DNA from: Adineta ricciae
Taxonomy: Eukaryota > Rotifera > Eurotatoria > Adinetida > Adinetidae
Direction of reading: 5' to 3'
DNA: 64,000 nucleotides
NCBI GenBank assembly: GCA_905250025.1
Contig: CAJNOJ010000017.1
Coordinates: 682,001 to 746,000, forward strand
Shown: in pieces, positions 16,703 through 62,669 of the stretch
Layout: each line of letters starts with the position of its first letter
Numbering within the stretch: position 1 is the stretch's first letter
Notes under the pieces: generated by a model
Seen by the model: only the letters and a program-made list of their open reading frames with translations
Told to the model about the DNA's origin: nothing
Databases searched by the model: none
Translations under genes and position numbers: made by a program

Positions 16703-19700
16703 TTAATTATAATAAAGTTGTCGTCGGCTGTCTCTTTTGAATAATCTGTTGAATGTTCTTCGAAAATGTTTGTTTGACAAAGCGTACAGAAATGGATTAA
16801 TTGTTGAATTAACATAACCGAGCCAAATCGTTGCTGTGACGACGCGTTCGGATACACACGAACCGCAAAATGCGACGACCATATAGATGATAAAATAAGG
16901 TAAGAAGCAGCATGTAAAACCAAAGACAATGGCGAATAGTTGTCGAAACGCCTTCTCTTGTTGATTCCAGACGGTCACTTGTTTGGCTTTATTTGCCAGG
17001 TGATAAGCTTGTGCGTTAGGACGTGGATTCGAGTTCGTCGGACTGATATTTCGATTCCGATTCGAAGTTGTTATCGGCGATTGAGCTTGCTTACGAATCG
17101 TCATAATTGGAACAGCATTAGCAGATGACGATGACGACGAGATTTTTCGAATTTGCTTGTACGGTTCACAATTGGCAGTTGAAATAGCATGATTGTTAAC
17201 GAAATGGTTCGAATTAATGGTAATTTCAGACGGCGCAGTTGAACAACAGTGACAGAGATTGAAAATATTCATTGTTGTCGTTGTTGTAGTCGTTTGCGGT
17301 GGAGGTGATATTTTCGTTGAATTTAACAGAGAACAACGACGACAGGTTGACGCTGCATGATGAAACGTTGTTTGATAGCGTTGATGCTGATAGAGTAACG
17401 ACGAATTGGCTGAACTACGTTTACTTTTACTTTTACTTTTACTTTTTCGTTTGCTCGAATGCGATCGACGCGCTTTATGTTCGCTTCTCGATCGAAGGAA
17501 ATGTTGATCTACATGAAGATGGTGAGAATCAGTCCGAGCATATTTGAAATTCGGTATCACCACCGGTGATTTTTGAGAGAACGACGAACGACAATAATTA
17601 CGATGTTGTGATAACCACGTTAATTCATCCTTTAACAAAACAAAGAAACTATACATCGCTTCGATGAACTCCCAGTCGATTTCTTACTTGTGCACACGGG
17701 TTTTGATCGACATAGGAGTAAGTACGTTTTAACGTAGAAGGTTGAAGCTCGGTGTATTGCATTGATTCTACTTGAGGACGAGCTTTTTTCGCTTTGAAAT
17801 TAATGCGTAAGATAGATTCATTTTTGTTGATCAAAGCCTTCGATGCAGTTTTCGACATGATTAAACTTTCGTTTTCTGTACAATTGATTGTTGATGAGCC
17901 CATTTGGCGATCACTATCACATAACGTTACTGTTATCGGCGAACGCGAGCGATTACTTGTCGGGTTGACCTTTCGGTTATAAATACTATTGTTATTCGTC
18001 GTCGTTGTCATCGGTTCATTGATTTTATTCGAATGTCGTTGTAGGAGAACACTTTTGTAACGACGTTTAATTTCATAGTAGATCCGACCATTCAATGATA
18101 TTAATACTAAGAGTGGTAAATAAAAATTAATTATCGCTGTTGACACCTTAAATACTTTGGAATGTGTGTATTCAGGTTCACATTTATCAGGCTAGAAACC
18201 GAGAAAATGATGTATTATGTCAATTTTTATAATCATTTCGTACTTCGATATATCGTTTACCATCATTGAAATGATGCCAACTGAATATGGGAACAACCCA
18301 GAGTAGAGACAAACCCCAAGCAAAACCAATTAACAATAAAGCTCGCGTACGTGTTCGTTTGCCGAGATATTGCAATGGAGACGTTATAGACCAATAACGA
18401 TCTAAGCTTAACGTTAACAAATTGAAGATAGATGCGGTTGAAGCAATGAAATCCACAGATATCCAAATTTGACAAACAATAAGACCTGAATAAATAATTC
18501 TTATAAAGACACACACTCTCTCGACCCATTAAAATCAATCTAGTTTAAACTAAGTCATTTAGATAACAGAAGAACTGTAGTCGATCTCACTGCCGGCAGA
18601 TTTTGTGCATCATCAGCAATAAAATGAGAAACAAAAAAGTAATAAAAATGTCTGAAATTGAATACTTTATTGAATGAATGCGTACGAAGTTAATCACCTT
18701 TTAATTTTTACTAAAGCACCTATGGGAATCCCCCACCTGCCCATAATACTTTCTAATTTCTTATACATTTCGCCTTGAACAATAATATCTAACGTCTGGA
18801 GGACATCTTCTTTGTTTTCATCATCTCTATTATAGACTAATTAATAAGTCTTTACAATTGAAGATATGACTGTCAAGTTTAGCGATCTTTTCAATTTGCA
18901 CTGACTTGAAAAGTATTAATAATTGATCTCTTTTCCTTTGAATTTTTTGCTTATCTGCAGAACAATATATGTAATTATTCCTTTTCTCTTGTTTTTTTTT
19001 TCCTTACACATTTATCCTCGTAGAATACCAAAGCTTACCCATATTCCATTTCTCCATAATTGCATATATACCAGCTATTGGCATAACAAAACATCCGACG
19101 ATCAGATCAGCTGTGGCGAGACTTAGTATGAATAGATTGCCGACCTAGACATAAAAAAAAGTATACAGCATTTTCTAAGATCGTCTGACACCTTTATCAT
19201 TGAAATTCGGCATTAAATTTAATCTCACTATGGTTATAAATATATCGGCAACGTTTGCTCCTCGTCACATACTTTTCTACTGAAAAAACTCGAACTAGAG
19301 ATGATTTAATATAGTCGATATGTATGCTAATTTAATTATTAAATGATCTACTATTCATAAATCAATCTTTTGTCTTGACGTGCCGATATTTTTTATGTGT
19401 ATACGAATGTATTAACATCGAACTGTGCATTACATTTCTCTGTGGAAATCGATCCTACTCTTATTTGACACTTACTGTTCGCATTCGTCGAAAACTACTG
19501 AGCACGATTAAGTTTCCAGATATTGTCAAAAAACACAGAAATGCGCAGATAAGACCAAATATAATTGTGTAGGGTAAAGGGGTCAATGGAAAATGCTGTA
19601 GAAAATCATTGTCGCTCTCGTTTGACGATCTGTCGGAGACATTAATCAAATGGATTTCGATCATGTTTCCAATTGTCAATGAGAAGGCATCGGTAACAAC

Positions 19701-19781
19701 ATCAGGAAATGTGTCCCGTTGCTCTTGCTGTTGATAGAGACGTTGATCCTCAAGGGAGACTACTTCGATGATATCACTCAT
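16703..19781 (-). CDS. histamine H1-like amine GPCR (rhodopsin family)
   Basis: Five exons (19476-19781, 19039-19144, 18244-18485, 17688-18191, 16703-17629) encode 694 residues with seven TM segments. TM1 has GNLIVL and TM2 LATADLIVG. TM3 has the amine-binding aspartate (about D149, VDFIASTAS) and DRYW (166-169). TM4 is followed by WVVPIFSWHHF. TM5 is TAIINFYLP, with Thr and Asn at the histamine H1 positions. TM7 is IWLGYVNSTINPFLY. ICL3 is very long (about 340 residues), with Ser, Lys/Arg and Thr homopolymer runs. The pattern around TM3, TM5 and TM7 is closest to vertebrate histamine H1 in my memory; muscarinic receptors are the next choice. Such receptors usually couple to Gq. The toggle tryptophan of CWxP is Phe (CFLP). 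A 553-nt intron separates TM2 and TM3. See also the alternative N-terminal exons at 21470-22421. Confidence 0.88.
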
Positions 19782-21469
19782 GTTTTTATGGATAAACAAA
19801 GTGGTTTAATTTATGTAGTTTCATATTGTTCATTGAATAGAATATCTAGCAAATGGATGGCACCGTTGTTTGCGTGCCAACATTGTTAAAAGAAGAAGAA
19901 GAATGAGAAAGACAAAGTGAAGGAGAATGAAAAGGAACAAGGAACTAAAAGAGAGAGAGAACAGAATTTTATCTTGTTCGTTAAGTAAGAGGGAGATGCG
20001 TTTGAGAAAAGAAGAGAACATATTGACAAACAAAGAACTTGTTCTCAATGAAAAAAATAACGACGGTATCTACTGTAAAACCTCAAAATTATGCTTTTAT
20101 CTTCCTATTAAGCATGCAAACTATTGTAATAATACAACGAGCAAATCATCGGCGTAATTCAATTTGAACAAACGGTTTTGGGAAACAAACACTCGAGATG
20201 AAAGGAATCGATTATGTATGATTATTCAGTCAATTTAAAAGGAAAGTTGAAATTATAACTTCTTTGGCTCATACGATTTTTCAAAGACCATGAACGAAGA
20301 CGAGTACATCGAATAAAAATTATCGAGACAATGTCGTTGTCAATATTATTTCCTTTGCGTGCATCTCTTAATCAGTTTTCTTTTTTCATCATGTCGAATA
20401 TACAATAGAGTACTCTCGTTTCATACGCTCGATTTCAAGACTTGAACTTAATGTTATTTATGACTATTTTCTGTTAATTTTCTCTCAGTCCCTCCTCAAA
20501 TGTGTTTTTTTATCAATGTCTGATTAAATTAATCCTCAACAGTCATTCTTTCATCTTTCTTAATGTTGATGTGACGTGACACATAGTTCATAACACTAAT
20601 CGTTTTTGTGATATATAGGATGTTTAATAAACTGAATAAAAATATAACAGAAACTAATCGTTCTGCGTCTTACGTTAGGTCCCGCGTATTATCCACGGAA
20701 GGAAGAATACTAAAGATTACACGCATTACTGCAAATGTAAGATGTACCTCGTTCGAAAGCTTCCGAACTACAAATAACATAATACAGACACCTGAGGAGT
20801 AATCTTGGGCGTGGAATGTTTTCTTGTTTTCATTTACGAGTGCTTTCGTCGCTGAATACAATCTGCTGATAATTTATAATCAGCTTATTTCCTTAGGAAT
20901 CTGTTTTTAATTCCTTTTAAACACAAATTAAAAACTCTACAAAGAACTTTTGGGACATGGCTAATACATACTAAAAACTTCCTCCAAGTTCTTATTGGTT
21001 TTTCTTCAGAATTCCCTAGTTCGTAGGTACTCTACTGATAATTGTCGGAACCGGGTGTATAAGATCCTACTATTCATATAAACGTAGACTACGCATGTCG
21101 TGCACTGATGAAATGAGCAAGCTCATATCTGTTATTAGTAGAACTTAACGTATTTATTAAGACTGCTACGGTTAATTGATAATCAACTAGTCAGTTTTCT
21201 TCTACAAAAAGCGCTCTATAATATAAGGGAAGTTATATTAGATATTCTTTCAGTAAAACCTATTCATGAGGACAGCCTCACTTTTCGCTTTAACGATCCT
21301 CAAAGTTTTTTTATTCTTTTGATCTTTTGCCTTTTATCCCTTTTGCTTCAGAGTGCATGTCAACTAATTCATCGAGAAGAATAAGAAGACTGTTAGTAAT
21401 CAAAACAAATTGAAAAATTTTAATTAAAGACCTTTCAAGATCTCCATAAGCAAACATCAAGTCTATTAC
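19782..21469. other. spacer between two first-exon modules
   Basis: If the upstream module splices to 19144, this sequence is part of its intron, and its lower end is the promoter of the proximal first exon. I looked for TM2-type coding sequence on the minus strand and found none. No other gene is supported. Confidence 0.45.
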
Positions 21470-22421
21470 CGTTCGTAAGTGGCGATTTGTGCGTAGTGCA
21501 TAAATCACAATAGCATTTCCCAGAACAGTCACTAATGAGAGAGTAAACATCGCCACCGCCAAAAACGCTGTATGACCAGTGGACACGTCAGCCATGTAAA
21601 CATCGATGAAAGTTGTGTTCAATCCCTCGTCGATATATCTAAGAAATTCAAATGAAATTGCAAGACATGTGGTGTACTAATGGAGCTTATTTTTACAAGT
21701 ACATGATTTCGAAGAAAACTATGTATAATTAAGACATGGTTTAAAAGCAGGTGTATGTCGACAAAGTAATTAATTTTTTTACATAGGTCATGAAATAGAA
21801 AATTTCATTTTTCTAGCAAAGAAATTTGCGTTAAATGTTTCCTGTGATATAGACGATCATTATCAAGTTTATTTTTAAACTTTTGTCTAGTGAAGATAGC
21901 CCGCTTTTTTGTTAGAACGCTGTATCATAAATGAACTACGACTAATGAAAAATTAACGCTCTCTATTCTTCAATTTCATACTATTTACACCATTCCGTCG
22001 ATTTTGTACTTTCATGTTAACTATACTACCCGATAAACATTCGCCCACTTTCCGGTCGTTTTCTCTTGTGAGTACTATCATAATAGTACTTAGTAGAATA
22101 AGGATATACACATTAGAAGAACTGATGTCTAGACTCCAGCGACATATATTCATCGGCAATACCGAATGTATTGAGCTGAATACTAATTATGGAATTCAAA
22201 TATCCACATCCGTCTGCACGCTGAAGATACATAGAGAAACGTCTCGCCTACGATTGCTCACACTTTGCTAATCCTGGATATACTTACGATGTTAACTCAT
22301 TCAATGATGTGAATGTTGTATTAACACCAATAACAAGATCATTGCTACCGAATATATCATAAGGGAACACTAAAGTATCGACTTTTGTGGTTGTATACAT
22401 AGTCGTCAATGTTGCCGTCAT
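21470..22421 (-). CDS. alternative N-terminus/TM1 exons of a GPCR
   Basis: Two exons in matching phase: 22288-22421 (ATG at 22421, MTATLTTMYTTTKVD) and 21470-21638. Together they encode 101 residues: an extracellular N-tail with NTT glycosylation sites and one TM1 helix (AMFTLSLVTVLGNAIVIYAL), ending ...RHLRT at phase 0 before a GTAATA donor. I find no TM2 to TM7 exons between here and 19781. The exon ends in the same phase and at the same residue position as exon 1 of the H1-like receptor (...RMRT), and the common TM2 exon at 19144 begins VGNLF. The simplest reading is a second promoter and first-exon set for the same receptor. A broken, separate GPCR gene is the alternative. Confidence 0.6.
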
Positions 22422-27289: not shown

Positions 27290-28864
27290 CTATTTCAAAG
27301 TGTCGAGTAGATTCCATATTTTTTGTCGCATAACACTTGTTGCACCGTTGTAGTTATTTATTATAATTGAAAAGACTTGGCGATGAATATAACCGGAATA
27401 GGAAAGAACGTTACTGATAAAACCGCTCTTCATTCGAATACCATTTATCATGGGTAATGCACGTTCAAATGACGGAAACCATGGTGCTCGTTCGCGAACA
27501 TTATGTAGAACACGTACGATAGCCCATGTTGTTATGCGGTTTTGAGGTGATAAACCGGAACCATCTCTTGTCGCTACTGCTGTTTGTTCAATACCATGTT
27601 CACTCATACAGTACGTCGGTAAGACACGATTGATACTCGAATTTAGCTTCTCGGCAACTGTTTTTATCAGCACTTCACCATACATATTGATGCTTATTTG
27701 TTCAAACCAATATACGATTTCACTCATTGGTGGTGAAACGTGTATGTCGAGTGTTATTCGATTTTTTGGTAAGTCTTCATCACTACGATAGATGATTTTG
27801 ATTGGCATCGAGTTTGACCATTGCATTCCCTGACGAAGCTCATCGGCCACAAACAATGCTGAATTGGGTACTGCACCACCAATAGAGAAGTTTTGTGGTG
27901 AATCAATACCTAAAGATCCGCGTAGATAACCATGAGTACAATCAGGACCCAAATAAACGTCGGCAAGATCGCCACTGCCCGGTGAACCTGTCACCAATTC
28001 ATTTGTAAATGTTACTGATGGAGGTAAATTTTCATAACCAGCAAGTGTGACAGGATCGCCGACAGAAGAACCAGGAGACAGAATTATACGAAATTGATTT
28101 TCGCGCCAGTTCAATGCACTACTACCCGTTGCATAGTAATTGCTAATTGAAATCAAATCAGAATAACAATAGGGTGTGACTTGAATCAATATTTGATTTT
28201 ACCCTAAACCTCCCCATGGATATCCATCTGGTACTGTTTGTGTTTCAACTGACCATGCACTCAGATCCACAACAACACCTCGACATTCTTTGATCCCTCG
28301 ACTTCTAATCGCATTCAACCAGCGTTCCATTACCACCTCACCTTTCGTCTCATTCCATCGCCAACTTCCCAAACTCGGATCACCACTTCCTATACACACA
28401 CAAACACACACATGCTTAGAAAAAGCACCGTTTTCGGCGAAGGACGGCCGCATACTAACCGACGATATAGATATAACCGTTGAGAATGCCAAACGAGTTG
28501 ATATTGCCGGAATATTGTAACATAGTCTTATAGCGATAATCTGTGCCTAGATAATGTAGAGCAGCAGCACCTGTAACCGTTTTCATCGTTGAAGCAGGTG
28601 AAAGGCCCAAGTCTTTATTGAAGGAGAAGGTGATGTTTCCTGTCGAATTATCAAAAATTGTAATCGAATAAGCTGCATGTAACAACTGAGGGTCTTTTGT
28701 GAAATTGTCCCAGGCTGCAGTAAATCTTGCATTTTCAATCGCATTCGTTTGAGGTTTAATAATCCACAGAGTAATTAGAACAGTAAGACATTGTCTCTGA
28801 TAAAAAGTTTTATGAAAGATTTATGACCACCCGAATTTTAACTTACTTTCAACCTCGATCCCAT
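27290..28864 (-). CDS. D-alanyl-D-alanine carboxypeptidase-like (peptidase S13/PBP4), copy A
   Basis: Exons 28847-28864, 28460-28796, 28203-28389 and 27290-28142 give 464 residues. The N-terminus has a hydrophobic signal segment (residues 9-19). Penicillin-binding catalytic motifs are in order: SxxK as STMK (about 76-79), SxN as SIN, DGSGLS, and KTG as KSG followed by an open C-terminal tail, the layout of bacterial DacB/PBP4. These enzymes cleave the terminal D-Ala of peptidoglycan stem peptides. Animals have no peptidoglycan and no native S13 family, so bacterial origin by transfer is likely, and bdelloids are known for such gains. Three short introns and a eukaryote-style signal peptide show domestication. 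A 4-exon model keeps phase throughout. A role in digesting or resisting ingested bacteria is inference. Confidence 0.88.
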
Positions 28865-29168: not shown

Positions 29169-30678
29169 TTAGCTAAGCGTATCTAACAAGTCAAATAATT
29201 TTTGTCGCATACTATTTCTTTGTCCATTGAAATTATTGGTGATAATAGAGAAGACTTGATTGTTAACATAGCCGGCGTATGACAGAGCATTATGAATGTA
29301 TCCGCTTTTCATTCGTATATTATTGATGATTGGTAGTGCTTGCTCGAAGGATGTGAACCACGGTGCACGTTTCCTCACATTGTGCAAGACACGTGCAATT
29401 GCTCGTGTTGTTATACGATTTTCTGGTGACAGTCCTGAGCCATCTATAGTTGCTACTTCAGCTTGTTCGATCCCATGTTCACCATTACAATATGCCGATA
29501 ATATAGTATCACTGCTAGTATTTATTGCATAAGCGATTGTTTTTATCAGCGCTTCACCATACATGTTGATACTTACTCGTTCAAACCAATATATGATTTC
29601 ACTCATTGGTGGTGAAACGTGTATGTCGAGTGTTATTCGACTTTTTGGTAAGTCTTCATCATTACGATAGATGATTTTGATTGGCATCGAGTTTGACCAT
29701 TGCATTCCCTGACGAAGCTCATCGGCCACAAACAATGCTGAATTGGGTACTGCACCACCGATAGAGAAATTTTTGGCTGTGTCGACGCTGAGTGTGCCGC
29801 GCAAATAACCGTGCGTGCCATCAGGTGCCAAGAAAAGATTTGTACGATCTCCCGTACCTACAGCACCAGTTGTAATCTCATTAATTAATGTTACGGACGG
29901 TGGTGGACGATCGACATAAACAAGAGTAACAGGATCGCCGACAGAAGAGCCAGGTGAAAGAAATAGCCGAAATTGGTTCTCACGCCAGTTCAGTGCGCTG
30001 TGACCCGTTCCGTAATGATTTCTATGCAGATTTAACACTCTGGATGTACACACAATACAAGTTACGTTGAACACAACTCACCCTAGGTCTCCCCACGGAT
30101 ATCCGCTAGGTATAGTCTGTGTTTGATCTGGCCATGCACTCAGATCCACAACAACACCTCGACATTCTTTGATCCCTCGACTTCTAATCGCATTCAACCA
30201 GCGTTCCATTACCACCTCGCCCTTCGTCTCATTCCATCGCCAACTTCCCAAACTCGGATCACCACTTCCTATACACACACAAACACACACATGCTTAGAA
30301 AAAGCACCGTTTTCGGCGAAGGACGGCCGCATACTAACCGACGATATAGATATAACCGTTGAGAATGCCAAACGAGTTGATATTGCCGGAATATTGTAAT
30401 ATAGTCTTATAGCGATAATCTGTGCCTAGATAATGTAGAGCAGCAGCACCTGTAACCGTTTTCAGCGTCGATGCAGGTGCGAGACCGAGGTTTTCATTAT
30501 GAGAGAATATAATGTTACCAGTGGAATTATCAAGAATAGTGAGTGAAAATGTAGCGTACGATAGTTGAGGGTCTTGCATGAAATGACTCCATGCTGTAGA
30601 GAAGTTTGTATTGACAGCAGCATACGTGTGACATTGAATCGACAGAAAACTGAAGAGAATTAAAACAATCCTCTGCAT
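29169..30678 (-). CDS. D-alanyl-D-alanine carboxypeptidase-like (peptidase S13/PBP4), copy B
   Basis: Exons 30339-30678, 30082-30268 and 29169-30021 give 459 residues. The second and third exons have exactly the same lengths (187 and 853 nt) as in copy A. A signal peptide (MQRIVLILFSFLSIQC) precedes the enzyme. The motifs are STLK (about residues 70-73), SIN (326-328), DGSGLS (369-374) and KSG (414-416). All catalytic residues remain, so both copies look functional. It lies head-to-tail with copy A, 304 bases away. Two stretches are almost identical to copy A while others differ widely, suggesting gene conversion. A short 5' exon ending ATG before a donor near 30735 could replace the ATG at 30678, mirroring the 6-codon first exon of copy A. 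Confidence 0.88.
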
Positions 30679-42355: not shown

Positions 42356-43537
42356 GTCGTTAGACGGCTGACTGGATACGAATGTACTTGAAAAATTACT
42401 CTGAATAATAGAAAAAGCAGACCTTACTATTTTATCGATCTAGTTCAATGAACTTGATGGACATATTGTGTGAAAAATGTCTGCTGCATGATTCATCATG
42501 GAGAAGTCGTATATTAGACAAGTTCCAAATAATTTACTTCGCGAATAGCACAGATGTGTTCATATTTAGTTTTTCCTAAAAAATCCGAACTTCTTGAATC
42601 GATTGGACTTCGCTTTGTTCATTCAAGATGATTCAGACGCCTCCTATTATATATTAGTATGAATTATTAGCCTTTTCTTGGTTTTCACATAGAAAGATCT
42701 CATTTGCTATTAGATTAGTAGAACGAAAGCTGCGAAATGCTTCTCTTATGTTTCAGATGTGTAGTAACGGAGGATAAAATGGTACTGCTTTTTACAAAAC
42801 AAGAACGGTTCCTTTTGAGAGACTTGAGGGTATACGCATCATATCGATTGTTTCGCCAAAGCATGCTTCTCACAACAAAAGTTTTGGAAAAAATTGAATA
42901 ACACTCTTACACGTGTTCAGACATCACACGCCAATGTGTGTAACACGTTTGGATTCCTTGTCTACAATTATCTGCTCACTTTCTGATGTGACTACTTCAC
43001 TCTTACATCAGTGTTTTTGTCTTTGGCACATGAACTATTTTGGCGTTATGAAACACGCTTCTCAATCGTTGCACCTTGTACTTTTAGATATTTTTCTACT
43101 GATTGGAGATCAGTAAGCGTCCAGGGCCTGGGCGTACACACGTCATTGACGATCGATGAAATGTCAATGGTACAATCATACGTACGTAGAAGGACGAAAA
43201 TAAATCGAACGAATATTTTTCATAAAATTTCCTTTCATACTTTCTTCACAGATGGATAACATGACAAATAAGAAAACATAAGATGCTAACTATAACATGC
43301 ATAAATAACTTTCATCTATTACTGATCACATATTAAAATGTCGTATTGTGTTGCTTACTAAGTATTAGATTGTAAAGTATTTTTTCGATTGGTTAATAAC
43401 CTTCAACGTTATTAAATAAAAAATACCGAAAATATTGATGCGCGGAGGCGATATAGATACATCGGCCTGTTGTATATAAGCGCAAGACAGATAATGGATT
43501 TTCATTTATTAATCTTCATTGCATTTCAACGTCCAGC
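42356..43537. other. intergenic; start of duplicated segment
   Basis: From about 43.14 kb onward the sequence resembles 47.19-47.6 kb, with high identity from about 43310 (promoter of the first Gly/Ser-rich gene). The earlier part shows nothing supported. Confidence 0.5.
43472..43479 (+). promoter_or_regulatory. TATA box of Gly/Ser-rich gene 1
   Basis: GTATATAAG about 60 bases before the ATG. The same element stands at 47534-47541 before the paralogous gene. Conservation of this block between the copies supports a core promoter. Confidence 0.65.
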
Positions 43538-44257
43538 ATGCAGATTGTTTACGGCTCGATCGCTCTCTTATGCGTCGGTGTCCTAGCCTTCAACAGTGTT
43601 GATGCTCGCTCTATGAAAACATACGCTGATAGTGATGAGAGCAGTGAAATGGAGAGACGTGAGCTATACGAAGCACTGACCGATGCTCTTCTTGCTAGAA
43701 GCTCAAGACATTTCCTGAAGGGTGGAGCTCGCAAACGCCAAGGCGGCAGCGGTTCCGGTGATTCCGGCAGCGGTTATGGCGGTTTCGGCAGCGGTTCTGG
43801 TGATTCGGGCAGCGGTTATGGCGGTTTCGGCAGCGGTTCTGGTGATTCCGGCAGCGGTTATGGCGGTTTCGGCAGCGGTTCAGGCTATCGTCGCGATCTT
43901 TTTGGTGGTTCTGGCGATTCCGGCAGCGGTTATGGCGGTTTCGGCAGCGGTTCAGGCTATCGTCGCGATCTTTTTGGTGGTTCTGGCGATTTCGGCAGCG
44001 GTTATGGCGGTTTCGGCAGCGGTTCAGGCTATCGTCGCGATCTTTTTGGTGGTTCTGGCGATTTCAGCAGCGGTTATGGCGGTTTCGGCAGCGGTTCAGG
44101 CTATCGTCGCGATTTTTTTGATGGTTCTGGCAGTGGCTTCGGAAAGCGTCGTCATTTCAATCCAGTTGCCAATTATAAACGCCAACAACAACAACAACAA
44201 CAATATTACCACAAACGAAATTACGATGGAGGATATAACGGCGATCTCGACGATTAG
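43538..44257 (+). CDS. secreted Gly/Ser-rich repeat protein with dibasic sites, copy 1
   Basis: A single-exon, 239-residue protein. The signal peptide (residues 1 to about 23) is followed by an acidic propeptide-like part. Next come tandem repeats of S-G-S-G-Y-G-G-F-G-S-G-S-G (about 68-205), interleaved in the second half with YRRDLFGGSGD units. The C-terminal part has KRRHFNPVANYKR, seven glutamines, YYHKR and an acidic end. Dibasic RR/KR sites occur every ~23 residues, the pattern of a peptide precursor cut by prohormone convertases; a Gly-rich structural or adhesive secretion is equally possible. The DNA repeat unit is 69 bases with few differences, so copy number probably varies. The start is the ATG next to the signal peptide. 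A polyadenylation signal (AATAAA) lies at about 44439. Confidence 0.85.
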   Translation: MQIVYGSIALLCVGVLAFNSVDARSMKTYADSDESSEMERRELYEALTDALLARSSRHFLKGGARKRQGGSGSGDSGSGYGGFGSGSGDSGSGYGGFGSGSGDSGSGYGGFGSGSGYRRDLFGGSGDSGSGYGGFGSGSGYRRDLFGGSGDFGSGYGGFGSGSGYRRDLFGGSGDFSSGYGGFGSGSGYRRDFFDGSGSGFGKRRHFNPVANYKRQQQQQQQYYHKRNYDGGYNGDLDD

Positions 44258-45543: not shown

Positions 45544-47533
45544 ACTTGAAGAAGAAAGAAGAATACTTTAATATTTTGCTAAATCTGTGATGTGTCTCAC
45601 TTGACTAACTCAGCGTCTGAATATTCATTGAAATGCGCATATTCAATCGACAAAGATAACATTATAGACAATTTCATACACCAGTGTGTGCATCTGACGA
45701 AAATACGAAGAATTGTTGCTGTCCATCAGAGGCGGGAGTATATTATTTTTTTAATAAATCCATTAATTTCTATACGTACATTTAGATATCTGTGGAAAAA
45801 TCAAGGACACAATAGACAATACCATTGGCGGATCAGAGATGGCTAAAAATATGATATACGATCGGTTACAGAAGTAAACTAATTTTGTGCTATGCGGTAT
45901 ACATCAATACACATTTGACAGTGCGTTTTTGAACTCAAGAATCTTTTTTCCGTCTTGCTTTTTACTACAGATGAAGTAGTTTCCAAAACATGCCATTACA
46001 GAAGGATCGATTGTCATTTTTCAAACCGCAGAAAGACATCTAAAATAATCTGATGGCTTCTTGTCTATCTGTTATAATTCGGTAGAACGTGTTAACTACC
46101 TAGACAAATAGTCACATAACGATCGTTTTCCAATAACTCATATCGACACAAAAGTTGTCCGAATCGACTAAGAATATCATTAAACTCTAACGTTTAATAA
46201 AAGTATTGAATATAGGAAACGTTGCATATGCATAATATTTCAAATACACATGCTCTTTCCTAATAATGAGTGTTGAAGTAAATCAGTCTTTTATAATTGA
46301 ACGACCATATCTTTTGTGTATTGGAAATAATGAGTACAATAGGACAAAAAAGCTGACAGTCCGTTCACAATGATTATAAAAATCGATCTAAAAGAACGCA
46401 TTTAAGATTTTGTAATATTTATCCATAAGCGTGTTTCTTATATGAACACTTAATTAGCGTAGCTCTGGCCGTTTATACATTGAATATCTAAGAATTGGCT
46501 TAAGTCAAGTTTCAATACAGACATATCTTTACTGGTGAATATTAAACATGCAACTAGTTTTTATTTCAGTACAACTCAACAAGGAAGATGGATGTGGGTA
46601 GCGAATATCTCAGCACGATAAGTAGAACCAGCTGAGAACGAATAAAGTAAATTAGTATTTTATCCCATCGTCACAATCATCCAATCTTGTGACAGCCTGT
46701 ATTAGCTGTCCTCACTAAATGCCCTCACCTTATAGGGTTATACGCACAAATAACCGCTTTGCCTGTGTCATCAAAAAATAACACCAAGAAACATTGAAAA
46801 AGTTATTTTCAACACTAATACTCAAAGACACAATAGCTCTACTTGCCACTATACGACATAAGTCTCTTATAAATATCATTGTTATCAAAAATCCAAAAAG
46901 TAAAAGTACATTTTCCCAATGATCTTCCAAAAACGGAAACATTGAAAATTGCTTTCAGCGTCTTCTTACAAATAATCATACGAAATCACGAATTGAATCA
47001 GATTATGCAAATTTTGAGCGTGTGTAGAAGACTAATCAAGAGAATTTCATCAGTACATGGTATCTCATTTTTTCTTTTTACGAATAATTGAAAATATGTC
47101 ATCAATATTACTGTACAATTATTGTATCTTGCATTTTTATGCTTTTTTAACGGTAGCAAATCTACAATCATCCAGTGCTGCGATGTATACAGCTCATTAG
47201 CGATCGATGAAACATAGCACATGTCATTGATGTAAATAGAAGAAAAGTAAACAAGAACGAATATAAATCGAACTAATATGTCTCATACAGTTTCTTTCTC
47301 GACCTTCGTTATTCATGGATAAGTTGACGAGTGAGAAAAAGTGAATAGTTAGCATAGCATGCATGAATAACTTTCATCGATTACTGATTACATATTAAAA
47401 TGTCATATTGTGTTGCTTACAAAGTATCAGATGGTAAAGTATTTTTTCGATTGGTTAATAACCTTCAACGTTATTAGATAAAAAATACCGAAAATATTGA
47501 TGCGCGGAGGCGATATAGATACATCGGCCTGTT

Positions 47534-47541
47534 GTATATAA
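47534..47541 (+). promoter_or_regulatory. TATA box of Gly/Ser-rich gene 2
   Basis: GTATATAAA at the same distance from the ATG as in copy 1, inside a block that is almost identical between the two promoters. Confidence 0.65.
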
Positions 47542-47599
47542 ACGCAAAACAGATAATGGATTTTCATTTATTAAACTTCATTGTATTTCAACGTCCAGC

Positions 47600-48187
47600 A
47601 TGCAGATTGTTTACGGCTCGATCGCTCTCTTATGCATCTGTGTCCTAGCCTTCAACAGTGTTGATGCTCGCTCTATGAGAACGTACGCTGATAGTGATGA
47701 GAGCAGTGAAATGGAGAGACGTGATCTATACGAAGCACTGACCGATGCTCTTCTTGCTAGAAGCTCAAGACATTTCCTGAAGGGTGGAGCTCGCAAACGC
47801 CAAGGCGGCAGCGGTTCCGGTGATTCCGGCAGCGGTTATGGCGGTTTCGGCAGCGGTTCTGGTGATTCGGGCAGCGGTTATGGCGGTTTCGGCAGCGGTT
47901 CTGGTGATTCCGGCAGCGGTTATGGCGGTTTCGGCAGCGGTTCTGGTGATTTCAGCAGTCTTTATGGAGGCTCTGGTAGTGGCTCAGGCTATCGTCGCAG
48001 TGCTGTTGATGGTTCTGGCAGTGGATGGGAAATGCTGCTCAGTCTTCTTGGTGGTTCTGGCAGTGGCTCCAGCAAGCGTCGCCATTTCAATCCAGTTGCC
48101 AATTATAAACGCCAACAACAACAACAACAACAATATTACCACAAACGAAATTACGATGGAGGATATAACGGCGATCTCGACGATTAG
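47600..48187 (+). CDS. secreted Gly/Ser-rich repeat protein with dibasic sites, copy 2
   Basis: A 195-residue paralogue of the gene at 43538. The first ~110 residues and the last ~45 are nearly identical, including signal peptide, propeptide-like region and KRRHFNPVANYKR-polyQ tail. The middle differs: the YRRDLFGGSGD units are absent and are replaced by DFSSLYGGSGSGSGYRRSAVDGSG and a hydrophobic WEMLLSLLGG segment. The two precursors would therefore release the same terminal pieces but different central peptides. The 3' UTR and polyA signal (about 48369) match copy 1 until about 48389. Confidence 0.85.
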   Translation: MQIVYGSIALLCICVLAFNSVDARSMRTYADSDESSEMERRDLYEALTDALLARSSRHFLKGGARKRQGGSGSGDSGSGYGGFGSGSGDSGSGYGGFGSGSGDSGSGYGGFGSGSGDFSSLYGGSGSGSGYRRSAVDGSGSGWEMLLSLLGGSGSGSSKRRHFNPVANYKRQQQQQQQYYHKRNYDGGYNGDLDD

Positions 48188-48679: not shown

Positions 48680-51600
48680 TTACCAAGCAATGTGTTCTAA
48701 CCAACAGCCAGGATTTCGTCGAATATACAATTTTCTTAATTCATCAATAATGAACATGAATGTGCCAAAGCCAAGTGCAGGCAAAACATAAAGTACTGGT
48801 ACTCGTTCAGTCTTAAATTGATGTTGCATAAATGGCACTTGTGTAATCAAAATACAGGTTAATGTTGATGCAATAATTCCAACAATTAACCATAGATTTC
48901 GACTATGACGAGACCAAAACGGATTGTGCGTAAAAAACGATGCATAACGTGTACGTGTTGTCAATAAGTTGAAACATTGCATAATGCATAAAGCCACATA
49001 ATAAATACATTGACCTGTTTGATTGATTGTCGTTAACTGTTTTTGCTTTTCTGGCGAGAATTGTTCTTCAAAGTGATTGAATTTAAAAAATATCATTGAC
49101 AATGGAATACCATTTGCTTGATACCACCAAAAGAAGCAAAAAAAGGAAGTGAAGCATTCGATATTACCAATGATTATATAAGCATGAAAGAGTAGTTTTA
49201 AGTTTAATAAGTGTGATTTATTTCGAATCGCTGGTGGACGGCGCATAATATCTTTCTCTGCTTTTTCCGATACCATTGCCAATGACATGAAGACATCTAG
49301 AAGAAGAGAAAAATACAAATTCATCGATTCGAGTTGTACAATACCATTCATCATGCAAAATATAGTTGCTTGAAAAGCCGATAATGCTAAGGGAATACCG
49401 AGCCAAGTGTTAAAGAAAACAGGCCAAATCTCCGACCAAGAACCTACAATACAATACAACAAGAACAGTAAATCAAACATGCCTGCTCTGATGTCTTGTA
49501 TAAGCTAAAGGCTGCTTACCTCCTGGCAGTAAATAAATGGCCACTTTCTTCAAATTGTCGCTCAATAATCGACCTGTCTCGATGGCTTTGACGATTGATG
49601 AAAAGTTATTGTCCATCAAGACCATATCACCTGCTTCCTTTGCAATATCTGAACCGGATTGCATAGCAACGCCAAGGTCAGCACGCTTCAATGCTGGTGC
49701 ATCATTAGTTCCATCACCTGTGACAGCAACAATTTCTCCGCGTCTTTGACATTCCATAACGATGCGCAGCTTATGTTCAGGTGATGTTCGTGCGAATATC
49801 AATTCTTGGTGCGACAATACCCATGTCCACATATATTCATCCACTATGTAATAGAAAGATGGATATAGGATTTTAGATAGAGAAAAGAAACTAAAGTTGA
49901 ATATGAACATACTGTAAGCAATATCACTTCCTTTGACGACCATCGCGTACGGAATGAGAACTTGTTTTACATCTCGTTCTGTTGTTGATTTCGGATCCGA
50001 AAAGTAGAAATTGATATATTCCCATGCACGTTTTATCCACGAAGCAGGTGTTCGATTTTCCTCATCGTTAGTCAAACGTATTTTCGTTGAATTTTTCTTG
50101 CTTTCTTCCAACCGATTCACTGTTCCTAATATATGTGTTTCCAGTAAGTTTCCATTTCGAAGTAACTGCACAATTGGTCGACCACTTGGCATATCAATGC
50201 CCACTAATTGAACTGTATCAACACCATTCATCTGATAGATTTCTGAAGTTAAAATATTCACTTGTCTGCCGATCGCAATTGATGTTGTTGGATGATCGCC
50301 TGTCACCATTGCTACACGAATTTTAGCTTGCCGAGCTTTGAGAACTGCATCTGGTACTTCCTCTCTTGGCGGATCAAGCAAACAGAAAAGACCAATGAAT
50401 GTGTAGCCATCTTTTGGAAGGCCATTGTATGGATCATCCGATGACGCATTCATTAACATTTGATCCAAAACATTCTTGTCAACTTGTTGTTGAAGCATAG
50501 CGATTATCCGATAACCATCTCTACCCATTTCTTCCTGTCGTTGAATGATTCGTTGACGAATATCATCTGTTAACGATTTGATATCACCTGCACTTGTTTT
50601 ATATGTCAAACACTTGTCAGGTGTTAAGACAACATCAGTTGCACCTTTTAATGTAATTAAAATGTCATTCGATTTGTTATTCAATATCGATTGATGTTTA
50701 GATGGTGACATTTGATTAGCAACAATCATAAATTTATTCGAGGAATTAAATGGTAAGCAATGAACTCGACGGTAACGTTGTCGAATATGCTCGACATCAA
50801 TGCTGAATTTTGTTTCGCATACATTATAAAGCGCAACATCAGCCGCATCGCCACTCAATGTTAAATGTTGAGCATTTTCTTGCAAGCGTTTTTCAGCATT
50901 ATTACATAGGCATGCACCCAGAACTAAATCTCTATGCGGCGTTGCTTTTGTACGAATTTCATCAATTTCTAATCGTCTTGTTTGCATAGAATCGGTCACA
51001 TTGATGCTATCAGCGGGTGTACCTGGTCGAGAACCTGACACACTTGATAAATGTCGGACAAGTGTACCGAATACAGATTTCCATTCTCGTTTATCTGCTG
51101 TTACGACGGTTGTTATTGGAACTTGATATTCACCATCAGTATCCCAGAGTAAATGTGTACAACTCATTTTATTTTGTGTTAATGTTCCAGTTTTATCTGT
51201 ACAAATCATCGAAACGGAATTGAATGTTTCAATTGTTTGGAGACTTTTGACGAGAACTTGTTGAGTTGACATGTATTTCTGCAAGAAAAATGAAAAATCT
51301 CGAGCTTTTCTTCGCACATCAAAGTTCATACTACTTACGGCAACAATAACGAGCACCAGTGTAACCGCTGACGGTAATCCAACAGGAAGAAATCCAACGA
51401 TCATTCCAACTGAATTGATAACATTCGAATTAAATGAGATATAGTTTGGATAAACTGGATTCAACCAGACAATCCACGATATCCATATGACGATGATTGA
51501 TATAACAGTACAGCAGAGAACAAATAATATAAATCGATTTACCTCGCGATGTAAACCAGTGATTTCATCCGTATTTGACGAACGTGTTAATTTACTGACA

Positions 51601-52417
51601 CGGCCTACAAATTGAAACATGAAATAAGAAAAAGTACAGTAATCATTGTCGGAATTCTACCTAACACAGTTTGATCGCCTGTAGCAACGACAATACCTTC
51701 CCCTCGACCTTCAACAACTAGTGCAGAGTAGAATACCATATTCGATGTTTCTAAAAGATGGTCATTCGTTGCCTTAAGGGTGCATTTAACAGGTTTCGAT
51801 TCGCCAGTTAACTCCGCATTGTTTACTTTAAGACTATCACACGATATGATCCGACAATCAGCAGGAACTTTATCACCAGTTTGCAACAAAATTATGTCAC
51901 CTGGAACTAAACCTTCTGTAGGAATCTGTTGTTCACATCCGTTATTACGACGAACCGTGGTCAGTTTTGGTAAAATCTGAGCAAATGAACGAATTATTTT
52001 GATTGACTTCATCTTTTGATAAACATTCAAAACAGCATTGGCAATGATAACAATGCCGAGAACAACACCCAAACCTAAATTTGTTGTATCTGGGTCTGGC
52101 CAGCCAAATGGTTCATAAGCGAGAAAAGCGAAGATCGCAGCAATCCATAACAATGCGTTAAAGCCAGTAAATGCTTGAATGAAAAACAATCGTATATATC
52201 CCGGCTGTGGAACAGGAGCCGGCTGATTTAAACCGTATTTTGCTTGCGCTTCATGAACTTGAAGCGTTGTTAAACCAGAACGTACATTACGAAGATTCAG
52301 TTGTGAACATAATTCGTCTAACGGCATTTTATGGGGCTGACTTAAAGATAAATCACTCACAATTGGTCGTTGTTTTTGCATGTTATCCAGCTGTATTGAT
52401 ATGGTATTGGATGCCAT
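48680..52417 (-). CDS. divergent P-type ATPase of the Na,K-ATPase alpha (P2C) group
   Basis: Exons 51661-52417, 51339-51604, 49913-51278, 49520-49843, 49345-49443 and 48680-49296 give about 1142 residues, slightly longer than Na,K-ATPase alpha. TGES is at 204-207, the phosphorylated Asp in DKTGTLT at about 369, then MVTGDHP, and TGDGTNDAPALKRADLGVAM. About ten TM helices are present. The C-terminus (YVLPALGFGTFMFIIDELRKLYIRRNPG) is characteristic of Na,K/H,K-ATPases. The catalytic cycle should work. The ion site is unusual: TM4 reads PVGLP instead of PEGLL, and in TM5/TM6 several carboxylate and amide positions are changed, although a TM5 Glu and one TM6 Asp remain. Transported ions are therefore uncertain. 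Three introns are multiples of three without stops. No beta-subunit gene is nearby. Confidence 0.88.
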
Positions 52418-53939
52418 GGCTGGAAAACAAAACTAAAGCAATGGACAGATTTCGTCTTGAGAAATACCTGTTTCCACTGACTTACTGCAAGATTATTAGA
52501 AGTGGCCAAAAGAATGTCAATTGTCACCCGGTCAACCGGCGTGTGTATGAACTGGCTTCGGTATATACGTATGTATATATATATGTGCAGGCAGACACTT
52601 TTTCTCTTTTTTTCTCTCTCTCTCTCTCTCGCTCTCTTTGCTATTCTACGTCTCCGACATTTCAATTGTTTAAACACATACAAAAGAAGAAAATCTACTT
52701 TTGTCTTCTCCTCGACTTTGCACTAGTTCAGTTGATTTATTCACATAGAAGTGCCTTTGCCCAGTATTCATTGTATACAGTTGTATATAAAGATGAAGTA
52801 ATGAACGATCACATTGAAACTTCAGACAGAATGAACAAACAGTTCATTTTCTTATATAATAAATACAATTTTTGTGGTGTCACCTGATGACTACAGCCAG
52901 TACTTCTGATTCATGAAGTGATGTATATTTACTACCAAGCGCAAAAGTTCATAAGAATTTTCGAATGCATTTCGTCTATTCAAGATAATATCGCACGGTC
53001 CTATGCATTAAATAAGATGATTCATCGCGATATACCGTTGACGCCAGTGTGCATTTATTGTTTCTTTCTTACTATTCTTTGTGCACCGATGTCCTTTTAT
53101 TTCTTCTTCGACTAAGTGTCCTGCCTGGAGGCACATAAGGTATAACGACATATATTCGGGTACATGTTTCAGTTGAATTATGAATGGCTATGAACTCTAA
53201 CGCTAAATTATATGGGTGTGCTCATTGTTATAGATGAACTTCACTTCTATGTATTTCGATATGAGTGGTGTCAAAGGTACAATGCTTATTATATAGATGT
53301 GTGCGCGTTTTCAGTTGAATCCTGTTAGGATTAATGAGAAACTAAAAAATACACGTTGCATTTCATTATAATCTAATTGATTGGTTCGAAAGATCATATA
53401 ATGTAGGAGTTCGTTGCAGAAACAAGATATTCAGCCGAGAAATATATTCTATTGGTCAAATGCCAAGTTCATACAGCCCTGGTCATACTCTACTATTTTA
53501 TAATAGATTTCTATAATGTAAATCTGCTTCAATTTCTAACTTTTAGTAATGCATAAACAGCAACAGTTCATATCTCATTGAATCGAGTCAGATAAATGAA
53601 CGAATAGTGAATTGTTGTCGTAGAGTTGAAAAGAAAAGACAATGACATTGTATTAGCCCAATTTGTTTTCGTATATGATTGTTACTTTAATCTCTTGGTA
53701 AACAAAAGAATCTAACGTAATTTACTATATTTCTACTACATAACTTTTCGATAATATCCATTATTGACAAGGAGGGCGTAGCACGTTAAAAAAAATCGAC
53801 GATCGATCGCATTTCGTTCACGAAAACAAAAAGAGAAAAAGTGCATTTACTTCATCTTTCTCATCTCTCAACGAACAGTATCGTCATAACGAAGGATAAT
53901 CGTACGTAGAATACAGCATACTATTTTTACAATAAGGCT
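52418..53939. other. divergent intergenic region; CT microsatellite
   Basis: Separates the minus-strand P-ATPase from the plus-strand PAP2 gene. A CT run lies at about 52607-52631. The long open plus-strand frame that starts in 52207 is antisense to ATPase exon 1 and is not called. No gene is supported. Confidence 0.5.
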
Positions 53940-59628: not shown

Positions 59629-61594
59629 AGTAGCCTTTTTTTTCAGTGAATTGAAATACATCAAAGAAAAAGTGAAGACATTCCGTATTTTATTTTATAT
59701 CTCTTTCTTTATATTGTGCAATATCAGTACAATCATTGTTGTTCGTTATTGTTAAAGCCTAATCAATATTCACTTATATTGCAATTTTCTAATTGTTGTT
59801 AGACCAACGATTGTGCATGTATGTTAACCTATGCTTGATTGTTCGTCTTTTCTATCAAAAACACTTGTTGTTCGTTTTTTTTTCTCCCGAAAATAACAAT
59901 TTATTGATATTGATGTGTACATGATTACATATATAAACGAAATCAGTTTATTCTTGTTAGATATGCGTTTGTGTAAGCGAGAGAACAGAAAGTGATGGAA
60001 TTTTGTACGAAAATAAAAGAAGCTTCATCAGGACGGTTTGGTCTTAACCAAAAAATGAATGTTGTTCATAAGAGAGAGTCAGGTGGTAAGTACAAAGGCG
60101 TAAGAAGTGCAGCCTATGCTGAATTTATTTTATACTTTTCAAAAGCACTGTAAATATGGTCAGGTCAGGATGGCCAGGTAAACTCAATTTGGAACGTTTT
60201 TAATTATATTTCTTAATGACATTTTGTCTCGTTTCCTTATCAAAGAAAAACATCATGCATCACCATTCGTAATTACCATTTGCTATCACAAACAGACAAA
60301 TGACTTATCGGCTACAACTGACTCGTTGAATATTATACATTAGCTTGAATTCGTTCATTTTATAAGTTGATCTTGATTACGCATACTAAATTCCGGAAAT
60401 TTGTGTGCAGTCAAGGATGAAGAACTTGAGTCTATGCCCACATCAGTAGACATCCTTGAAAAACAAAAAACTTATATAGTTTTAGTCCGACAAGCCAATA
60501 TTTGTTCAATTCTGACGACATCAGGCGCTATTTTACAGCCTATGCCTCCACAAATACAATACCCTACTATAAAATTAATTGTTGAATCCGATCACTGATG
60601 TCATGTGTGTTTCGATGTTTACCTGCGAGTGACTTTCCACTTCAGAATCAGCTTAACAAACATCACAGCAAGTTTTGTACTTAAGTCCGCGTGCTCGATA
60701 GCGATTAAAGCCGACAAACACGATACTACTAGATAAAATTTCTGTACCTATGTCATTCTGGTTTGCATTCTTGTGTTATATGAAGATTAATAATGCTCTA
60801 ATCTATCTGTAACGAACGTAGAATAAATAGGATGTCTAATACATTGAGGTTAATAATTATACTTATTGTAAGCCGTAAGAAATCCGTAGTTTATTTTGTA
60901 ATCAAGATTTTTCCATATTCTTCACGATAAAGTGGGACGTTGTCATATCGAGAAGAACGCACAAAGTTTTCTTATGTTAAACAGTATTGTGTTTGTGGAT
61001 TTACTGAGAAGAAATCCTTATTCTTGATTTATACGAATTCAACGAGCTCTAATTCTTGTTTATTCTCTATTGAACAAACGTTATCAGCCTAGTATTTTCT
61101 TAAACAACTCTAACCTTCATGCTCTATTCCATAATCTACATACCTTCACAAAACTGAGTTGATCAGTCGCGTGAATTTCTGAGTTGCGACGTTCGATCTA
61201 TTCATTCTTATCTATATAGTTAATAGTTTCTCTTGAATGAACTGTCACTAGCAGGGGTAGTAAAACTACATATGTTTCATTGGTCGGACAGCTGAACTCT
61301 AATTAGTCAACCTCAGAATAGTTTGAAAACAACGACTTGCGGTACATGATAAGGCTTGGAGAAGTGCACTGAAATTATCCACGAACTGAACGACTTTTAT
61401 CGATACTTCTAGTAAACTAAGTCGATTAAATTTTCATTTGATACCAGGTAAAGAAAACTAATTTTATTGAGAGAATCCAAGTGTTCCCTTTCCGTCTTCA
61501 AAAACATAGCTCTAAATAAAAACAATTCAGTCTTCATAGATCTGAATACGTCAAGTGCTTATTCCTTTCGAATTATCTGAACGTAAGACTGGCA
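59629..61594. other. intergenic, weak ORF only
   Basis: Begins with the synaptotagmin 3' UTR. A plus-strand frame at 60410-60598 follows an acceptor-like TTTGTGTGCAG (VKDEELESMPTSVDILEKQ...) but has no partner exon I can find. No gene is called. Confidence 0.4.
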
Positions 61595-62669
61595 ATGTAT
61601 CCCAACGTAATATTTCTACGTGCTCCGAATAATTCCAATACTTTATCTGTAAATATGACTGCATCTGTTGCTAATCATCGTTCTGTGAAACTCGCGATTC
61701 TCTTGCCTTGTCAAGTATTGTCACTTTTATTCTCCTTATTCATATTCATGAATGTCGTATATGGCTCATATAAACTATTTCGACCAGTCCGAAACCATTT
61801 TATTGCAGTTTTATTGATAACAAGTTTCATTCAAGTATCAACAGAGTTATCCATGGTTGAAAGCTATTTACATACAGGTGTTGTGCGTCCATCTACACCA
61901 AGTTATTGTTCATTCTTCAATTGGTTTGAATTCTCATTAAATGGTATCAGTTTACATGTTAGTAAGTCATTTGTTTTTATTAAATTTTACTCAAATGGCA
62001 TAATCTACGATGTTTCATTTAGTGTTTTGGACATCGATTGAACGGCATATTCTCATATTTTCTCATGTGAGCCTTCGCACTCCGTGGAAATGTCTTCTAT
62101 TTCATTATATACCGTTACTTGTGAGTGTTGCGTACGCACCAAGTATTTATGGCTACTTTATTTTTATCTATGAATGCGTCAATCACTGGGATTACAATGA
62201 ATTGCTTTGTACAGCACCGTGTTTCTATCAAAATAAACTTCTTGGCATTATCACATGGTTAGCTAATATAATTATCCCTGCGTTTTCAATTGCAATAGCG
62301 AATATGATCTTAATCATTCGTGTGACATGTCGGTCTGCGGATCTACAAGTAAATATTCGACGAATGAAAAAGAATCGTAAGATGACGATTCAATTACTCG
62401 GTATTTCTTCACTTTTTCTGATCTTTTGGTTGCCAATATCAGTAACGGGTTTGATTCAACAATTTATCTCTCCAACTTTCTTGATCGATGTACAATTCAA
62501 TGTTTTCTTTTATTTAATCTATTTTATTCAACTTTTTCTTCCATTTGTCTGTTTCGTATCTTTACCCGAACTGAAAAGTCGAATTAAGCAATCCATTCGA
62601 CGTCTCCAAGGACGAAACGCCATCGGTGATATGATAACTCTACAGATGGCTCCCACAATACAATACTAA
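61595..62669 (+). CDS. orphan seven-transmembrane receptor
   Basis: Two exons (61595-61961, 62023-62669) encode 337 residues. An extracellular N-tail with NNS, NMT-type glycosylation sites is followed by seven hydrophobic segments. TM3 ends in SIERHILIF, an ERH version of the DRY motif, and the intron falls just before it. Two extracellular cysteines (SYCSF before TM3 and LLCTAPC in loop 2) could form the conserved disulfide. A basic ICL3 (RRMKKNRKMT) precedes TM6 with FWLPISV. The GN of TM1, LAxxD of TM2 and NPxxY of TM7 are absent. This looks like a lineage-specific rhodopsin-type receptor, perhaps chemosensory; the ligand is unknown. Phase is exact across the 61-nt intron. Confidence 0.8.

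Follow-up and report, generated by a model that had tools for sequence, protein, structure and literature searches.

Alternative first exons are an established source of receptor variants in the opioid receptor genes, including OPRM1, which give forms with seven, six or one transmembrane helices (7TM, 6TM and 1TM; PMC8534031, PMC8159799). Exon 1 of OPRM1 encodes the first transmembrane helix (TM1), and the upstream exon 11, which has its own promoter, can bypass exon 1 and be joined to the TM2 exon. In the mouse, no membrane helix is predicted in the 27 residues encoded by exon 11, so that joining it to exon 2 gives a 6TM form, and according to PMC8159799 no sequence replaces the missing first helix in that form. 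Here, a 64-kb stretch of the genome of the bdelloid rotifer Adineta ricciae (contig CAJNOJ010000017.1, positions 682,001 to 746,000, forward strand; hereafter the window) was analysed, in which one histamine H1-like receptor gene very probably has two alternative 5′ coding modules, each encoding an N-terminal tail (N-tail) and TM1, on one receptor body. Unlike in OPRM1, the alternative module brings its own TM1, and both forms are predicted from sequence to be 7TM receptors.

The modules and all exons that follow them lie on the minus strand. The distal module was read as a putative first exon for the N-tail (22421-22288, 134 nucleotides (nt), open from its ATG to the donor gtaagtat; unconfirmed) and a TM1 exon (21638-21470, 169 nt), together 101 codons; the proximal module is a single first exon for N-tail and TM1 (19781-19476, 102 codons). 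The modules are followed by GT donors in phase 0 (gtaatag after the distal, gtaagtg after the proximal), and the distal TM1 exon and the proximal exon are kept, with their donors, in each of the four gene copies that the 130-Mb genome was found to contain, here called A (the window, C17), B (on C33), C (on C1) and D (on C27). Downstream of both modules lies a single TM2-TM7 set (19144-16703) of four shared exons: e2 (19144-19039), which encodes TM2 (VGNLFILSLATADLIVG), opens with VGNLF and is preceded by tctag; e3 (18485-18244), for TM3-TM4; e4 (18191-17688), for extracellular loop 2, TM5 and the start of intracellular loop 3 (ICL3); and e5 (17629-16703), for the end of ICL3, TM6-TM7, the C-tail and the stop codon. 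Exon e2 was placed by reading the joined frame, the other three by joined-frame reading together with alignment to the human histamine H1 receptor (H1R). Joined to this set, both isoforms are open to one common stop (694 and 693 residues).

TM1-like sequences were searched for with a profile made from 40-residue segments of both modules and of homologues, against 4,615 open frames from the window and 13 further loci. Two good matches were obtained in the window (E 3.3e-16 and 1.5e-14; next E 0.62), a result which, as both modules were in the training set, gives the number of TM1s and not their identity. An earlier note, made from the letters of the window, had proposed that each of two modules encodes an N-tail with TM1 and ends in phase 0, and its coordinates, lengths and phases check exactly; its single TM2-TM7 set, beginning in phase 0 at 19144 with VGNLF, is likewise borne out by the frame reading. 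Its statement that both modules end in R-x-R-T applies to the proximal module (RMRT) and has to be dropped for the distal one (HLRT).

The order distal TM1, proximal TM1, single TM2-TM7 set was found in copies A, B, C and D alike, and for that reason the layout is more than chance. A genome search placed the modules at 1406108-1405947 (distal) and 1404545-1404246 (proximal) in copy C, and at 615823-615984 and 617349-617648, respectively, in copy D. Used as a query, the proximal exon gave four matches genome-wide and the distal frame (21676-21470) five, the fifth on C32 at the site of a paralogue; of the 68 matches to the TM3-TM4 exon, four had 74-100% identity and none of the others exceeded 50%. 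At five other receptor loci scanned with the TM1 profile (C32 and C22 with 5-6 kb of upstream sequence, C236, C149 and C34 with about 1.5 kb), no double TM1 was found in this small scan, each locus giving one TM1 match. The core of copy B is identical to that of an A. ricciae protein in the databases (P0007).

Copies A/B and C/D form near-allelic pairs with 88-95% identity in non-coding DNA. Between the pairs, synonymous divergence (dS) is 1.8-1.9 over e2 and e3 and 2.1-3.0 over the core, with protein identity of 86-88% over e2 and e3, so that A/B and C/D are old duplicates. They are probably bdelloid ohnologues, because a neighbouring stretch also aligns between A and C.

Since dS is saturated between the old duplicates (several NG86 values were undefined), selection was assessed by counting nonsynonymous (N) and synonymous (S) changes and not by dN/dS. 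Over the 41 codons at the end of the distal module, A/B against C/D gave 24-25 N and 29-31 S changes, against a neutral expectation of 71.5% nonsynonymous (p 2.3e-5 to 8.7e-5), with an amino-acid identity in TM1 of 54-60%; the proximal TM1 gave p 7e-4 to 1.9e-3, all these values coming from a test that handles multiple changes per codon crudely and from four between-duplicate comparisons that are not independent. Within the pairs, exon 21638-21470 differs between A and B by 1 N and 5 S changes (p=0.006), and the proximal exon between C and D by 8 N and 7 S (p=0.04). On these counts, purifying selection has acted on the distal TM1 between the old duplicates. When A was aligned with C by blastn, the distal TM1 (E 1.8e-5, ending 5 bases beyond the donor), the proximal TM1 (E 2.4e-9) and the shared exons were recovered; the remaining alignments covered part of what is presumed to be an adjacent gene and three short pieces (E 0.35). 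A duplicate without function would be unlikely to persist as an island of conservation in such DNA.

Residues 1-137 of the distal isoform were searched against about 5.8 billion predicted proteins, giving 224 candidates, of which 13 had E<=0.001. One of them, P0001 (547 residues, from a contig of 1,813 bases), has a distal-type TM1 (GNTVVIYALQTDRHLRT) joined directly to VGNLFILSLATADLIVG and the full body, its TM1 scoring 102 with the distal module and 12 with the proximal. The genomic copies have four introns across the region that is uninterrupted in P0001, and the contig was therefore read as derived from mRNA; even if it were a retrocopy, such an mRNA must have existed. A proximal-type counterpart, P0003, possibly of another species, comes from a contig of 2,009 bases; both look like spliced products. 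In a tree of the core (27 rows, with a long-branch warning chiefly among the outgroups), P0001 falls inside the C/D clade (support 97/99), and both duplicate clades contain proteins of Adineta and Rotaria, so that the duplicates split before these genera did. Both lines in A. ricciae carry the two modules, which dates the dual state to the split of the duplicates or earlier, barring conversion.

Joint inclusion of the two modules was checked at the acceptor sites ahead of the proximal ATG. An in-frame stop stands 8 codons (A, B) or 16 codons (C, D) upstream of that ATG with no AG in between, so that no splice ahead of it can continue the distal frame through the proximal ATG. The first phase-0 acceptor shared by the modules is 19144; those of e4 and e5 are also in phase 0, and joining either module to them would lose TM2-TM4 or more. 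A transcript begun or capped at the distal module would be spliced from 21470 to 19144, skipping the proximal exon, and one begun at the proximal module from 19476 to 19144; the TM2-TM7 body would be identical, with N-tail, TM1 and loop 1 exchanged. The proposal of mutually exclusive N-tail and TM1 modules for one receptor, also made in the earlier note, thus finds its support in conservation across four copies, selection on the distal TM1, the phase-0 donors, the barring stops and P0001. We infer that both isoforms are used in A. ricciae. The choice between them would be set by separate promoters or by the choice of spliced-leader acceptor, and the two promoters proposed in the earlier note are possible.

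The second of these routes would have a single promoter before the distal module, with leader trans-splicing ahead of the proximal exon giving the proximal mRNA. It is a variant of the two-module arrangement, its chances overlap with those of that arrangement, and we consider it somewhat unlikely. A 23-nt spliced leader is reported on more than half of the transcripts in two bdelloid species and was not found in Brachionus (PMC1925144); as bdelloids use such leaders, a choice between trans- and cis-splicing could achieve the same swap from one promoter. A YAG, a candidate acceptor, stands 5 nt before the putative distal ATG in A and B and 16-17 nt before the distal ATG in C and D, and another lies in pyrimidine-rich DNA 57 nt before the proximal ATG in C and D. 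Within 150 nt of the proximal ATG, however, A has one YAG (at 64 nt) and B none, and YAG is frequent by chance.

Several observations weigh against use of both modules, and some of them would suit a distal module that is the unused relic of a truncated tandem receptor duplicate. The proximal TM1 is present in 11 of the 13 proteins found (P0002-P0012) and P0013 is without TM1, and no named model among them has the distal type; P0001 is a single protein cluster that begins inside TM1, its mRNA origin being read from its open frame; a search for shorter distal fragments (about 140-444 residues) gave only P0121, a paralogue; and the differences between A and B in the putative exon 22421-22288 look neutral. 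Evidence of selection within the pairs is weak for the proximal exon of A/B (4 N, 4 S, p=0.09) and for the distal one of C/D (7 N, 6 S, p=0.07). A relic is nevertheless improbable, as is the truncated second receptor gene that the earlier note had kept as its alternative: the distal module is present in all four copies over saturated synonymous divergence, with purifying selection on its TM1 and a conserved donor, and P0001 joins a distal-type TM1 to the body. Still less probable is a separate short gene for a one-helix protein ending in the intron: a frame continued beyond the donor remains open for 52 codons in A and in B, 50 in C and 45 in D, and one-helix OPRM1 fragments are known (PMC8159799), but the read-through tails of A/B and C/D look unrelated by eye, the alignment of A and C stops 5 bases (blastn) or 8 codons (tblastx) past the donor, and P0001 shows the joined form. 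Pseudogene relic and one-helix gene were both rejected on these grounds.

Within the arrangement of two alternative modules, a part of the earlier note that is not borne out is the coding first distal exon at 22421-22288. It is present in copy B, the changes between A and B (7 N, 4 S; p=0.26) fit neutrality, and blastn of A against C aligned no counterpart in duplicate C. The distal module of C and D is a single 54-codon exon that has its own ATG, and a longer coding start is unlikely there because the two copies differ by one base just upstream of the exon. In A and B, an in-frame Met inside 21638-21470 could yield a short tail resembling that of C and D, and these copies may use exon 22421-22288 or do without it.

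By best sequence and fold match, the gene is a histamine H1-like amine receptor. Both isoforms match Pfam 7tm_1 (proximal 176.3 bits, distal 187.4 bits, cut-off 30.5) and are assigned to the class A (rhodopsin-like) G-protein-coupled receptors (GPCRs). In a phmmer search of the PDB with the distal isoform, H1R was the best match (E 5.2e-77), followed by muscarinic M3 (1.6e-60). AlphaFold models were taken for P0001, of the distal type, and P0006, of the proximal type, whose core is identical to that of copy C; the helices have pLDDT (predicted local distance difference test) values mostly above 80 and ICL3 is disordered. The top PDB match by Foldseek was 8yn2 (H1R) for both, with muscarinic M5 a close second for P0006. 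Of the H1R pocket positions D3.32, T3.37, K5.39, N5.46, Y6.51, F6.52 and W6.48, the alignment with H1R, read by eye, shows D, T, K, N, Y and F retained and W6.48 read as F (CCFLPYF). The ligand pocket of such receptors lies in TM3, 5, 6 and 7. As this part belongs to the shared body, the two forms would more probably differ in surface delivery, in pairing or in G-protein contact through loop 1.

A difference between the modules overlooked in the earlier note is the spacing between the conserved asparagine of TM1 and the beginning of TM2, which was counted in the copies and in 121 database proteins. It is 16 in the distal modules of all four copies and in 69 of the 121 proteins, P0001 included, and 13, three residues fewer, in all four proximal modules and in 14 proteins (P0002-P0012, P0014 and P0015 and P0016 of Brachionus); in the remainder, the TM1 motif (14 proteins) or the TM2 motif (24 proteins) could not be recognised. 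The TM1s of P0014 and the two Brachionus proteins score 49-60 with the proximal modules and -13 to -23 with the distal ones, and H1-like receptors of other animals with a recognisable TM1 score the opposite way, distal over proximal. The distal module thus looks like the retained ancestral form, and the proximal TM1 is apparently a rotifer form that predates the split of bdelloids and monogononts. In the AlphaFold model of P0001, a short loop-1 helix (residues 23-25) lies between TM1 and TM2; the outer part of TM1 is missing from this protein, and its TM1 start is therefore uninformative. In that of P0006, TM1 ends at residue 97 and TM2 begins at residue 101, without a loop-1 helix turn.

An ancient switch may be proposed on this basis, with tentative confidence: the choice of first exon would toggle between a TM1 with the usual loop and one about a turn shorter, altering coupling or delivery with the pocket untouched, the proximal type predating the bdelloid-monogonont split and the dual state predating the split of the duplicates. 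A TM2 motif could be recognised in 97 of the 121 proteins. It directly follows a TM1-like stretch in 85 of them and does not in 7; the other five have fewer than 17 residues there, which in P0071, P0076 and P0112 are not TM1 and in P0013 and P0050 are cut-off TM1 ends. The stretch before TM2 ends in FQ in five of the ten odd proteins, as expected of a read-through splice acceptor. This hint, drawn from gene models and not from a genome survey, points to an intron after TM1 that is old in protostomes and would make TM1 a movable unit.

Public models of this receptor look incomplete. P0013 (A. vaga I4U23_009279) begins with MRTVGNLF, after TM1, which suggests that public bdelloid gene models miss an isoform. 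The gene models P0017 and P0039 (Rotaria sp. Silwood2) were seen to be without the TM2 exon.

Elsewhere in the window, two tandem 302-residue open frames, counted from stop to stop and alike by eye, lie on the minus strand (27290-28198 and 29169-30077), both with ALNWRENQFR and PNSALFVADELRQGMQWSNSMPIKIIYR. Two very similar open frames on the plus strand (43457-44257 and 47519-48187) have a signal-peptide-like start and GSGSGYGGF-type repeats differing in copy number. A P-type ATPase-like gene lies in pieces on the minus strand at 49473-52432, with DKTGTLTQNKM and TGDGTNDAPALKRADLG, which we take to be motifs of this family, and two overlapping open frames on the plus strand (61520-62669) have by eye the appearance of a multi-helix, 7TM-like receptor.

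To our knowledge, splicing diversity in GPCRs mostly concerns the tails or gives truncated 6TM and 1TM forms. In the open-licence literature on alternative first exons and receptor TM1, no report of a swapped complete TM1 was found among the titles and opening lines of abstracts listed (in three of the listings, 10 of 12, 8 of 50 and 8 of 77 entries), which is not proof of absence. Two complete, selected TM1 modules on one body amount to a natural experiment on TM1 and loop 1 of a class A receptor, and the difference in loop-1 length makes differences in coupling and trafficking directly testable. The gustatory receptor family to which Gr39a of Drosophila belongs is not known to be G-protein-coupled. 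The arrangement of Gr39a (as of Gr23a, Gr28b, Or46a and Or69a) is similar in its tandem-duplicated, mutually exclusive 5′ exons, common 3′ exons and selection; each large exon of Gr39a encodes six of the seven helices, whereas the rotifer gene swaps TM1 only, in a class A receptor (PMC2204066). The tyramine receptor gene ser-2 of Caenorhabditis elegans is alike in being an amine receptor gene; it has four alternative first exons and yields several splice variants (PMC3614513). The human H1 receptor is the best match in sequence to the distal isoform and the top match in fold to models of both types, and the bdelloid gene differs from it in having two TM1 modules and, in the proximal one, a loop-1 spacing three residues shorter. 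The closest precedent is OPRM1; what is new here is the three-residue difference in loop 1, the distal module having the usual H1-like value and the proximal one the short value common to monogonont rotifers.

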